32,389 nt of DNA, taken from NCBI GenBank assembly GCA_017608525.1, contig JAFCFS010000005.1, forward strand, positions 1 through 32,389, in the 5' to 3' direction. Positions 11,816-31,949 of this stretch are shown in pieces. Origin of the DNA: Candidatus Woesearchaeota archaeon. Lineage in GTDB: Archaea; Nanobdellota; Nanobdellia; SCGC-AAA011-G17; GW2011-AR17. The notes beneath the pieces are model-generated. The model saw only the letters and a list, made by a program, of their open reading frames with translations. It searched no databases and was not told where the DNA came from. Positions within the stretch are counted from its first letter, which is position 1; each line of letters begins with the position of its first letter. The translations under genes were made by a program, and so were the position numbers.

Positions 11816-12923
11816 GATCGAAAAGATTTTAATAAAAGGAAACGATGCTGTTGTTGAGGCAGCATTGAGGTCAGGTCTAAATGGATTTTTTGGTTATCCA
11901 ATCACTCCAGCTAGTGAAATTATCGAAGGATTTGCGAAAGCTTATTATGAGGATTTAGAAAGAAAAAAGAAAGGACTAAAGCCAAAATATCCAGAGTTTC
12001 AGGTTTTTTTGCAAATGGAAAGCGAAATTGCCTCAATTAATGCCGCGCTTGGTGGGGCTGCTACTGGAAAAAGGGTGCTGACTGCATCCTCAAGTCCCGG
12101 TATAAGTTTAAAACAGGAAGGAATTTCCTATATTGCTGGTTGCGAACTACCTGTGGCTATAATTGATGTGATGCGAGGAGGTCCTGGTTTGGGGAACATA
12201 GCCCCAGAACAAGGAGATTACTTTCAAACTGTTAAAGGAGGAGGTCATGGGGATTACAGATTAATAACCCTTGCTCCCAATTCAGTTCAAGAATTGGCCG
12301 AATTTACTTGCGAAATATTTGAATTGGCAGACAAATATAGAAATCCAGCTGTTTTACTTTACGATGGTTATTTGGGTCAAATGAAGGAAGGAGTTATTTT
12401 TCCAAAAGTCAAAGCGAAAAATTACGATAGGAGCAGTTGGGCTGCAGATGGTAACAAGAAAGGAAGGGAAAAACATATAATTACATCAATTTATATAGCA
12501 CCCGAAGATATGGAAAAGCATAAATTGAGATTGAAGAGAAAATACGATTTGATTGAAGAAAAAGAAGTTAGATTTGAGAACTATAAATCAGATGATGCAG
12601 ACATTGTTATTGTTGCTTATGGAATTGTTTCAAGGATTGCAAAGGATGTTGTTGAAAAAGCAAGAAAAGAAGGAATCAAAGTTGGTTTATTGAGACCTAT
12701 AACTTTATGGCCATTTCCAAAAAAAGAAATTTCACAAATAGCTGATAATGCAAAAGCAATCTTAACAGTCGAGTTGAACATGCTCGGCCAGATGAATGAG
12801 GATGTGCTTATTTCAGCCAACGGAAAATGCCCAGTAGAATTTTATGGAAGATGTGGAGGGGTTATACCTAAAGAAAAGGAGATACTTGAAAAAATTTTGG
12901 AGATAAACAGGAAGGTAAAATGA
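11793..12923 (+). CDS. korA: 2-oxoacid:ferredoxin oxidoreductase alpha subunit
   Basis: GNDAVVEAALRSGLNGFFGYPITPASEIIE...MRGGPGLGNIAPEQGDYFQ. Start at MKKNLENK (ORF opens upstream at 11709). Confidence 0.95.
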   Translation: MKKNLENKIEKILIKGNDAVVEAALRSGLNGFFGYPITPASEIIEGFAKAYYEDLERKKKGLKPKYPEFQVFLQMESEIASINAALGGAATGKRVLTASSSPGISLKQEGISYIAGCELPVAIIDVMRGGPGLGNIAPEQGDYFQTVKGGGHGDYRLITLAPNSVQELAEFTCEIFELADKYRNPAVLLYDGYLGQMKEGVIFPKVKAKNYDRSSWAADGNKKGREKHIITSIYIAPEDMEKHKLRLKRKYDLIEEKEVRFENYKSDDADIVIVAYGIVSRIAKDVVEKARKEGIKVGLLRPITLWPFPKKEISQIADNAKAILTVELNMLGQMNEDVLISANGKCPVEFYGRCGGVIPKEKEILEKILEINRKVK

Positions 12924-20421: not shown

Positions 20422-20510
20422 TGGTGCGGGGGACGCGATTTGAACGCGCGCACCCACTAAGGGACAAGGCCCTCAACCTTGCGCATTTGACCAGGCTCTG
20501 CCACCCCCGC
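20422..20510 (-). tRNA. tRNA-Leu (anticodon GAG), genomically encoded CCA
   Basis: GCGGGGG acceptor with CCCCCGC, anticodon stem CAAGG-TTGAGGG-CCTTG, long variable arm, T-arm GCGCG-TTCAAAT-CGCGT, then ACCA. Confidence 0.95.
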
Positions 20511-28185: not shown

Positions 28186-28883
28186 TTTATTTTCTTCTTG
28201 TTTATTTTTGTGAATTGCTTTTTCTCCAAATCAACATACGCTCCATCAATTCTTTTCAAATTGAATTCCTTCCCCAAAACTTTCTTCATTATTTTAATTG
28301 CTAATTTTATACCTTCTTCTATTGTAATGTTTTCATTGTACTCTTTTTCAAGCATTTTTTTCGCTTCGACTTCTCCTTCTCCGATAGCTGTTGCTTTATA
28401 TTCGAAATAGATTCCAATTGGATCAGTTACTAATAGTCTTGGCCTGTCATCTACGCCAATAAACATTAGTGAAACACCAAATGGTCTGGCTCCTCCTAAT
28501 TGTGTGTAAAGTTGCTTAATGTCGCAAATTTCTTTTACCAAAGAGACGGTATCAATTGGAACATCATATGTTACTCTATGTTGTTGTGCAATCAATTGGG
28601 CTTTTTCAATCAAAACTCTCCCGTCCATAACGCATCCTGTTGCAGTTGCTCCAATGTGTTTATCTATCTGGAACACTTTTTCAATAGCTTCTGGAACAAT
28701 CAAGCTTTCTGTAATCCTCTTGTCTACAACTATTAAAACACCGTCTTTGCACCTAATCCCGATTGACAAACTTCCCTGCTTCACTGCTTCCCTAGCATAT
28801 TCAACCTGTAAAAGCCTACCGTCAGGACTAAACATAATACTAGTCCTGTCGTAACCCATCATTTGATTTGTTAGCTCGTGCAT
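28179..28883 (-). CDS. psmA: Proteasome subunit alpha
   Basis: GYDRTSIMFSPDGRLLQVEYAREAVKQGSLSIGIRCKDGVLIVVDKRI. Confidence 0.97.
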   Translation of the reverse strand: MHELTNQMMGYDRTSIMFSPDGRLLQVEYAREAVKQGSLSIGIRCKDGVLIVVDKRITESLIVPEAIEKVFQIDKHIGATATGCVMDGRVLIEKAQLIAQQHRVTYDVPIDTVSLVKEICDIKQLYTQLGGARPFGVSLMFIGVDDRPRLLVTDPIGIYFEYKATAIGEGEVEAKKMLEKEYNENITIEEGIKLAIKIMKKVLGKEFNLKRIDGAYVDLEKKQFTKINKKKIKW

Positions 28884-29233
28884 TTTCCCTCTTGGGCAGC
28901 AAAAGTTTTTTTAATTGCTTTATTTAAAATACCTGATACTGTTATTGTCCTTATTAAAACTTTCTTATTTTCTATACTTTTTACTAAACTCAGGGCTGCC
29001 CTGACTTTATCCACCTCCTTTACGTTTGTTTTTATTATTCCTCTATTATTAGCATATTTTGGAACAAACAAAATGCCGGCCCTTGCCAAACCATATTCAC
29101 CTAGAAAATTGAGCAATGATCTTTTGATAGCATTTTTAGCTGTTTTAAAATCTATCTTAAAATTTCCATCACTTATTATTTCGAATCCAATATACCTTTT
29201 TTTCTCCTTTAATGTTGGTAAAATCAGTCTCAT
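28871..29233 (-). CDS. rnp2: RNase P protein component 2 (Pop5-like)
   Basis: MRLILPTLKEKKRYIGFEII...LLNFLGEYGLARAGILFVPKYANNRGIIKTNVKEVDKVRAALSLV; ATG at 29233 preferred over TTG at 29263 because of TATA spacing. Confidence 0.88.
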   Translation of the reverse strand: MRLILPTLKEKKRYIGFEIISDGNFKIDFKTAKNAIKRSLLNFLGEYGLARAGILFVPKYANNRGIIKTNVKEVDKVRAALSLVKSIENKKVLIRTITVSGILNKAIKKTFAAQEGKCTS

Positions 29234-29277: not shown

Positions 29278-29289
29278 AGTTTATAAACT
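29278..29289. promoter_or_regulatory. Palindromic TATA element AGTTTATAAACT upstream of Pop5/super-cluster
   Basis: Perfect 12-bp palindrome; ~45-55 bp upstream of ATG 29233, implying initiation ~25 bp downstream on minus strand. Confidence 0.55.
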
Positions 29290-29305
29290 TTTTCTTAAAT
29301 TTAAA

Positions 29306-29520
29306 AGAAGAAAAGCGCTCTGGGCTTGTTGGACTTAATCCATAAAGATCAAATCCAAATCAGTGAAAATCCAAAGGATTTCCACTAAAACTTAGTTTAT
29401 GGCAAAGCCACAAACTAAGCCAAGTCACCCGCGCTATCAGCTGTTGACGTCCGAAGTCCAAGTCTTCATGGAAAATCCGAAGATTCCCCACAAAGACTTG
29501 AAGTCTTCCGCCAACAGCTA
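29306..29520 (-). ncRNA. Candidate highly structured non-coding RNA, ~215 nt
   Basis: On minus strand: 19-bp hairpin capped by cUUCGg (29459-29500), outer AGCUGUUG/CAACAGCU, then a junction closed by AGCGC/GCGCU enclosing three hairpins (29391-29419, 29362-29386, 29329-29358). Non-canonical positions are G-U on minus but A-C on plus. TATA-like ATTTATAAAT at 29541-29550 and U-rich end. Confidence 0.75.
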
Positions 29521-29540
29521 AGAATTTTGACGATTTTCAT

Positions 29541-29550
29541 ATTTATAAAT
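29541..29550. promoter_or_regulatory. TATA-like palindrome ATTTATAAAT, candidate promoter for structured RNA (minus) and/or gene at 29608 (plus)
   Basis: ~25 bp from RNA 5' end on minus strand; also upstream of ATG 29608. Confidence 0.45.
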
Positions 29551-29607
29551 CTTTCTCTCTTAAAAATAATCACAAAATTTATAAAAAACCAATTTAAGAT
29601 TAATTTC

Positions 29608-30123
29608 ATGATTAAAAACATCCTTTGCATATTTGCCATTGCACTCTTAATTTGTTTACCTAGTTTAGTGTATGCTGGAGATTTAAAAGAAATAAATTTA
29701 GGAAAAGAGGCTCAGGGTGAATGGTTCCAAAAAAATGACAAGGTAAAATTTATTTACCATGGAAGAGCAAATGTAATTTCAATAGAAAAAATCACAAATA
29801 AGAGTATCAAGATTACAATATTTCCAAATCTCGAAGAAGGTATTGAGTTAACATTAAAAAAGGGAGATAAACTGAGGTTAGACCTAAATAAAGACCAAAG
29901 AACAGATGTCGAAATAAATTTGTACTTAATCAAAAATGGAAGCGCTTTTTTAATATTCAAAAGTTTGGATGATAGGAAAAAGGTGGAAAATATAATAACA
30001 GGAAAATTTTACGCTGAAGGTGTTGTAGAAGAAAAAAATAATATAATGTACTATTTGCTTTTTGCAATATTTTCTCTGTTTATATTTTTAATCATTTTAA
30101 ATTATAAAGCAAAAAGAAGATGA
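29608..30123 (+). CDS. Signal-peptide-bearing, C-terminally membrane-anchored hypothetical protein
   Basis: MIKNILCIFAIALLICLPSLVYAGD signal peptide; C-terminal YYLLFAIFSLFIFLIILNYKAKRR. Confidence 0.7.
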   Translation: MIKNILCIFAIALLICLPSLVYAGDLKEINLGKEAQGEWFQKNDKVKFIYHGRANVISIEKITNKSIKITIFPNLEEGIELTLKKGDKLRLDLNKDQRTDVEINLYLIKNGSAFLIFKSLDDRKKVENIITGKFYAEGVVEEKNNIMYYLLFAIFSLFIFLIILNYKAKRR

Positions 30124-30836: not shown

Positions 30837-30839
30837 TTC

Positions 30840-30914
30840 TGCCCCGGCCGAGATTTGAACTCGGGTCTCAGCCTCGAAAGGGCTGAATGATTGACCGGAC
30901 TACACTACCGGGGC
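30840..30914 (-). tRNA. tRNA-Glu (anticodon TTC)
   Basis: GCCCCGG/CCGGGGC acceptor, CAGCC-CTTTCGA-GGCTG anticodon arm, T-loop TTCAAAT; no encoded CCA. Confidence 0.95.
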
Positions 30915-30940
30915 ATAAGTTTAGGAACTAAAGTAAATTT

Positions 30941-31672: not shown

Positions 31673-31721
31673 ACCATTATGTTAAATAGAATAAGTTCAT
31701 ATTTAAATTTATCGACAAAAA

Positions 31722-31805
31722 CGCCGCGGGTGGGATTCGAACCCACACGTCCCGAAGGACACAGGCTCTCCAGGCCTGCGCAATACCAGGTTATGCGACC
31801 GCGGC
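31722..31805 (-). tRNA. tRNA-Ser (anticodon GGA)
   Basis: GCCGCGG/CCGCGGC acceptor, CAGGC-CTGGAGA-GCCTG anticodon arm, long variable arm TGTCCTTCGGGACGT, T-loop TTCGAAT, discriminator G; no encoded CCA. Confidence 0.96.
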
Positions 31806-31949
31806 ATTCGGTAGCAAAATTGGTATGCCTTCCTTAATTTTGAACTTTTTTCTGCATTTTTTACAAATAAGCATTGAAGCAGTCTTATCGTATATTAAGT
31901 TTCCTTTGCATATCGGACATGCTAAAATTTTGAGCAAATCTTCATTCAT
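31791..31949 (-). CDS. Trm112/YcaR (UPF0434)-like zinc-ribbon small protein
   Basis: MNEDLLKILACPICKGNLIYDKTASMLICKKCRKKFKIKEGIPILLPNAAVA* (52 aa, absent from ORF track); ACPxC...CxxC...EGIPxLL pattern; ATGA overlap with upstream CDS. Confidence 0.85.
   Translation of the reverse strand: MNEDLLKILACPICKGNLIYDKTASMLICKKCRKKFKIKEGIPILLPNAAVA

Follow-up and report, generated by a model that had tools for sequence, protein, structure and literature searches.

A predicted family of structured small RNAs with a near-invariant internal loop in a class of DPANN-type archaea

A two-domain structured RNA and its second copy

The window, that is the whole stretch of 32,389 nucleotides analysed here, comes from the genome of a Candidatus Woesearchaeota archaeon (G000; 1.03 Mb in 88 contigs, 90% complete). 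On its minus strand, between the RNase P protein gene pop5 and a divergent reading frame, lies a predicted small RNA of two domains (Table 1). Its ends were estimated from the spacing of the TATA element, which begins 28 nt upstream of 29521, and from the U-rich tract. The divergent "secreted-protein" frame (29527-30123, plus strand) has no Pfam match; its likely start is 29608, where the protein would begin with the signal-peptide-like sequence MIKNILCIFAIALL.... The TTG at 29527 that was listed as its start would make the frame overlap the TATA box of the RNA. The window also carries genes for tRNA-Glu(ttc) (30839-30915), tRNA-Ser(gga) (31721-31806) and tRNA-Leu(gag) (20422-20510), all on the minus strand.

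Table 1. Coordinates in the window of the predicted RNA, its parts and its downstream neighbour.
Feature	Position	Strand	Evidence
Predicted small RNA, two domains	29303..29521	-	Ends estimated from TATA spacing and U-rich tract
TATA box ATTTATAAAT of RNA gene	29541..29550	-	Sequence; family loci; kept in copy B
Domain 1, the unit conserved in the family: outer stem, internal-loop core and UUCG-capped helix	29440..29518	-	Models R1 and R3; covariation
Outer stem P1, 5' strand	29509..29518	-	Pairs with 29440-29449
Outer stem P1, 3' strand	29440..29449	-	Pairs with 29509-29518; family covariation
Core motif, 5' strand, GAAGACU (family consensus GRANAAU)	29502..29508	-	Near-invariant A9 columns 14-20, 37 units
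Core motif, 3' strand, CUUCGGA	29450..29456	-	A9 columns 104-110, 34-37 of 37 units identical per position
Helix P2, UUCG tetraloop at 29478-29481	29457..29502	-	Fold; length variable across family
Domain 2 (closing stem, two small bulges, three hairpins)	29314..29435	-	Pair comparison with copy B
Domain 2 closing stem	29431-29435/29314-29318	-	Fold
Domain 2 hairpin H1	29391..29419	-	Fold; copy B comparison
Domain 2 hairpin H2	29360..29388	-	Fold; 3 pairs with both bases different in copy B
Domain 2 hairpin H3	29329..29358	-	Fold; copy B comparison
U-rich tract, probable transcript end	29303..29313	-	Sequence; T-rich DNA also follows many family members, though not all
Separate TATA-like box (TTTATAA), probably of pop5	29281..29287	-	Sequence
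pop5 (RNase P protein), downstream neighbour	28871..29233	-	Pfam PF01900, E 1.9e-17; start by alignment with relatives (MRLILPTLKEKKRY...)

The minus strand of 29300-29530 folds with a minimum free energy of -111.5 kcal/mol, against -57.1 +/- 4.7 kcal/mol for dinucleotide shuffles (z -11.5; 0 of 200 shuffles as low), whereas the plus strand of the same region folds less well (z -7.4). All the helices that the original prediction had named were found on the minus strand, namely the outer stem, the capped helix, the closing stem of domain 2 and its three hairpins, and so were the TATA-like box and the U-rich tract. The UUCG-capped helix is 21 bp long and not 19 bp. The strand had been assigned from G-U pairs, and the count upholds this, with 14 such pairs on the minus strand vs 1 on the plus strand. 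When 1840 segments of 210 nt from both strands of the window were folded, the RNA had the lowest energy of all (-109 kcal/mol, 8.3 sd below the mean). Outside the RNA and the tRNA-Ser region, the next most stable stretch lies at 12006-12215 on the plus strand (-66 kcal/mol per 210 nt, 3.7 sd below the mean). No long ORF covers the RNA region, and the sole listed minus-strand ORF that overlaps it is a 57-aa frame ending in domain 1.

The window was searched with Rfam 15 (4227 families) and gave no match to the RNA: only the tRNAs reached the gathering threshold, and the weak matches fell far below it. This agrees with the earlier reading that the RNA resembles neither RNase P, SRP nor 5S RNA, nor C/D or H/ACA RNAs. 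Indeed, the genuine archaeal RNase P RNA (RF00373) of this genome was found at C49:8071-8356 with 138.6 bits and its SRP RNA (RF01857) at C1:6420-6693 with 183.5 bits, neither model matching the locus; since both sit elsewhere in the genome, the RNA of the window is neither of them. Similarly, four other loci of the family described below had no Rfam match in E-value mode.

The genome holds a second copy (copy B; C19:19853-20060, plus strand), located upstream of metK, 84% identical to the window copy and with the same TATA region in front of it. Its fold is more stable than that of the window copy (-130.9 kcal/mol, z -13.5). Domain 1 is almost unchanged between the two copies (98% mean column identity). 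Domain 2 was aligned by hand, helix by helix. The 51 pairs compared are all kept: 36 are identical, 10 differ at one base and 5 at both. Its loops, UUU or UUAU in the window copy, read UUCG in copy B. By inspection, the closing stem of domain 2 is in both copies built like domain 1. Above an outer stem, the 3' strand carries a purine-rich bulge of 3 nt; a helix of 3 bp follows, then a bulge of 3 nt in the 5' strand, and finally the upper part, which in domain 2 consists of three hairpins in place of the single helix of domain 1. Diverged second units following a first one also occur in two other genomes (G007 and G080). Domain 2 is thus probably a diverged, lineage-specific second unit that bears three hairpins on top.

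Distribution, structure and genomic setting of the family

A plain nucleotide search of 60 relatives gave no match beyond the source genome; only covariance models worked, because the sequence diverges too fast. A first model of domain 1 (R1), made from the two copies of the source genome, found three further genomes and missed others that were later recovered by model R3. In the genomes found by R1, a UUCG-capped helix is enclosed by a shared core that reads GGRAG-AA-UUU in its 5' half and ACUUCGGAC in its 3' half. A search of 84,980 bacterial and archaeal species with a pattern based on this core identified full hairpins in five archaeal contigs (entitled Nanoarchaeota, Woesearchaeota or "archaeon"), two of which carry two tandem units. 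Seven bacterial matches (L014, L015, L019, L021-L024) and one viral contig (L026) have no outer stem and were attributed to chance.

Model R3 was built from seven units, the two copies of the source genome being kept outside the training set. Applied to 378 genomes of the class, it retained 24 at E <= 0.1, 22 of them with full-length matches, and both copies of the source genome scored 62-63 bits. The window copy shows the outer stem, the GRANAAU/CUUCGGA core, the UUCG-capped P2 and the upstream TATA box of the family. In total, 37 complete hairpin units are present in 22 of the 378 genomes, spread over about a dozen taxonomic families. Matches below 20 bits with the apical hairpin only or a shortened form (G251, G293, G013, G017, G020, G023 and G035) were left uncounted; in one of these genomes (G293), two adjoining small UUCG-capped hairpins without the family core (L045:1480-1532) are possibly another structured RNA. 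An independent exact-pattern search of the same 378 genomes yielded 25 matches, whereas the reversed pattern, run as a control, gave 4. Of the 25, 23 belong to family loci, and no new genome was added; missed detection by the model is therefore not the main reason for the sparse distribution. The pattern matches in G305 and G369 lacked a match to the RNA model and were not counted. No family member was found outside the class in a sample of the phylum. The RNA is not essential for the class, since it is present in only 22 of 378 genomes.

The nearest relative of a unit lies in the same genome or taxonomic family for 23 of the 37 units, vs a mean of 3.3 with shuffled labels, a figure that includes recent tandem duplication. 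Genomes carry from one to five copies, and tandem arrays often comprise two or three complete units, sometimes with a further diverged one, behind one promoter. The highest copy number was seen in G056, where at least three complete tandem units at L067:2762-3078 (contig C279) are followed by a diverged hairpin (GGUGGAGCAACU...UUCGG) and where two more single copies lie on other contigs.

The family unit is a hairpin of 60-95 nt made of an outer stem of about 10 bp, an internal-loop core and a helix of variable length that is mostly capped by UUCG. Its structure was assessed in an alignment of 40 hits (A9), which is fitted to the model and therefore leans towards the structure. In A9, 90.4% of cells form standard pairs vs 66.6% in shuffles, two-sided changes affect 28 of 31 pairs and amount to 314 cells vs 105.7 +/- 8.6 in shuffles, and G-U types recur across the whole alignment. 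When the partner column was shifted by 1-3 positions, only 39-49% of cells paired, down from 90%. All 10 pairs of the outer stem show two-sided changes, with 96.6% of cells paired. The signal is the same in the seven-unit alignment, itself fitted to model R1, and in the hand-aligned comparison of the two copies.

The core is close to invariant. Among the 37 complete units, the columns of its 5' strand read G (37), R (37), A (35), N, A (36), A (35) and U (36), and each position of the 3' strand C, U, U, C, G, G, A is kept in 34-37 units. GRA/UUC pairs are possible between the two strands in every unit. The core may pair either as GRAN with CUUC or through three purine-purine pairs plus AA/UU, and covariation fits both registers alike because the core columns hardly vary. 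P2 plus its loop measures 26-56 nt, and the apical loop is of UUCG or CUCG type in all 37 units (CUUCGG in 27). The alignment of the 37 units thus indicates that the outer stem, the core and the cap are the constant parts, the length of the upper helix being free.

The original prediction of a non-coding RNA under selection for structure is therefore well supported, by covariation over the 40 aligned hits, by a second structured copy, by TATA boxes and by the lack of an Rfam match. It needs amending on two points: the conserved unit is domain 1 only, domain 2 being seemingly a lineage-specific, diverged second unit, and the anchor proposed upstream of pop5 is not conserved, as described below.

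A TATA-type octamer starts 24-38 nt upstream of the first unit at 23 of 27 loci, a distance similar to that in the window, against 4.3% of the remaining positions of that DNA and 8.5% of shuffled upstream sequences. Many members are followed by T-rich DNA. The genes next to the RNA include pop5, metK (twice), rpp30, AspRS, LeuRS, gatE, Dph2/aIF5B (family f23), Band_7/RNase_H_2 (family f48), PCNA, RNase HII, rpS2 and others. Both orientations occur among these genes, and at several loci they are convergent on the RNA. No protein-coding neighbour common to all loci was found. An RNase P protein gene lies directly downstream on the same strand in two genomes (pop5, 28871-29233, in the window; rpp30, L064:1867-2355, in G026). 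Similarly, metK adjoins the RNA in two genomes, the RNA being upstream of it for copy B and downstream in G087. Neighbours lean to translation and RNA genes (AspRS, LeuRS, gatE, aIF5B, Dph2, rpS2, LigT), a post hoc observation.

The region upstream of pop5 had been proposed as a conserved anchor for comparing related genomes, which proved wrong: the pop5-psmA operon is kept within the taxonomic family, and an unfiltered search found a copy upstream of pop5 in none of the 16 family relatives with pop5. Moreover, pop5 need not share the transcript of the RNA, as it appears to have its own TATA-like box. The RNA gene, with its own TATA box, its varied and sometimes convergent neighbours and 16 relatives without a copy upstream of pop5, is thus independent and not tied to Pop5.

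Possible function of the RNA

That this is a real and new RNA family we consider nearly certain. A literature search, in which subscription journals were mostly outside the search, found no description of it. Judged from sequence, it is a hitherto undescribed family of a class of DPANN-type archaea whose named members were deposited as Nanoarchaeota and Woesearchaeota. The family, its structure, the promoter position, the tandem modularity and the lack of a fixed gene neighbour are shown by the comparisons above, and the RNA is predicted to be independently transcribed. Novelty is claimed at the level of the RNA family, the predicted mechanism not being claimed as new.

The best explanation, to which we give a little under an even chance as a whole, is an independent small RNA gene whose core docks a protein, with the RNA acting as a scaffold or decoy. 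The core is invariant where pairing needs no identity, while the length of P2 is free (26-56 nt), which suggests that the core itself is recognised and makes it a candidate protein-binding site. The helices and UUCG caps would provide a stable RNA, and one to four tandem units behind one TATA promoter would multiply the binding sites. The RNA may then serve as scaffold or decoy for an RNA-binding protein, in the manner of CsrB or Y RNAs and unrelated to them. Protein docking would account for the near-invariant, helix-flanked loop bases, the free length of the upper helix, the UUCG caps and the tandem repetition, and we hold this mechanism only tentatively. Against it stand the lack of a common protein-coding neighbour over all loci, the lack of TROVE/Ro60 in the 22 positive genomes and the presence of the family in only 22 of 378 genomes. 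Stated in full, and with the same reserve, the proposal is a new kind of modular archaeal RNP in reduced-genome archaea, in which one to four copies of a new internal-loop motif would be bound by a putative protein that the RNA would titrate or scaffold; in the source genome the second unit would have expanded into a domain of three hairpins, and the gene as a whole is duplicated.

The invariance of the core could instead mean that it pairs with a target RNA or folds to bind a ligand. The main rival is a trans-acting antisense sRNA, whose CUUCGGA and/or GRANAAU strand would pair with a conserved rRNA, tRNA or mRNA target. Short near-invariant stretches between freely changing stems and an own promoter would suit it, but the invariant strands face each other in a very stable hairpin and can partly pair (GRA/UUC, 37 of 37 units), which would hide the seed, and there is no conserved unstructured seed or loop, the apical loop being just UUCG. 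Antisense action is less likely because the CUUCGGA strand is held inside the hairpin, and we regard it as unlikely overall. Somewhat less probable still is a catalytic RNA or a sensor of small molecules or ions, with the core as active site or ligand pocket. A compact invariant internal loop with covarying flanks is indeed seen in small aptamers and ribozymes, but no common gene set and no expression platform are attached to the RNA, no cleavage-type loop is recognisable, and the conserved core is only about 14 nt long.

A hairpin that acts as DNA, being a mobile or repetitive element (REP- or MITE-like, or a transposon end), would explain the patchy distribution, the tandem copies, the unrelated insertion sites and the two near-identical copies in one genome. 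We set it aside as very improbable: G-U pairs are kept (14 vs 1 here) and common across the alignment, which favours an RNA, TATA boxes precede the units at a narrow distance, copy number is only 1-5 per genome, and the RNA recurs between Dph2 and aIF5B in three genomes of family f23 (G354, G289 and G345). A role in cis, as leader or attenuator of the gene that follows (here pop5), might be suggested by the 45-100 nt that separate the RNA from a same-strand gene at several loci (pop5, metK, rpp30, gatE, Band_7). It is contradicted by loci where the closest gene downstream converges on the RNA (e.g., G007, G081, G087, G094 and G037) and fits poorly with a downstream gene that varies by family, the TATA-like box of pop5 and the 16 relatives without a copy there, which leaves it barely credible.

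To our knowledge, next to nothing is known about regulatory and structural RNAs in DPANN archaea, as these organisms are mostly uncultivated and their genomes small (0.5-1.8 Mb here). A family that has promoters of its own, covaries strongly and keeps a near-invariant core offers a concrete handle on such RNAs: the core can be synthesised as bait, and the 37-unit alignment can be used on metatranscriptomes at once. Should the RNA titrate a protein, CsrB-like logic would be present in archaea.

Comparison with known RNAs

The family shares with archaeal RNase P and SRP RNAs a highly structured archaeal RNA, and the window copy adjoins an RNase P protein gene. Archaeal H/ACA and C/D guide RNAs are alike in size range and hairpin form, but the consensus of the family has no box motifs, guide pocket or k-turn consensus, its helices are UUCG-capped and Rfam gives no match. 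A K-turn bound by L7Ae (C stem-NNN-GA/GA-NC stem) was rejected: alignment column 17, which should hold the first G of GA, has a pyrimidine (C or U) in 11 of the 37 units, and by inspection the strand opposite the core also misfits the NC stem. RNAs of type III toxin-antitoxin systems (ToxI-like) similarly consist of tandem structured units, whereas here there is no common toxin-like neighbour and the downstream genes vary and are mostly housekeeping; this assignment was rejected, the neighbours being diverse, those scanned with Pfam mostly housekeeping, and no toxin gene being linked.

Y RNAs associated with Ro60 are small hairpins whose stem has a conserved internal loop or bulge rich in purines, and their distribution in prokaryotes is patchy; the present family resembles them in all of this. 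Its core sequence differs, however, and TROVE/Ro60 (PF05731) was found in 0 of the 22 positive genomes, the control genome Deinobacterium being positive; with no Y RNA match in Rfam either, a Ro60 RNP was discarded. CsrB, CsrC and RsmY are bacterial protein-sequestering RNAs, encoded by independent genes, whose repeated hairpins each display one protein-binding site. The archaeal family has no sequence relation to them and has the same modular, repeated hairpins and an independent gene. The CsrB-type site is a GGA in the apical loop, whereas the apical loops of the archaeal units are UUCG and their conserved site is the internal loop GRANAAU/CUUCGGA.
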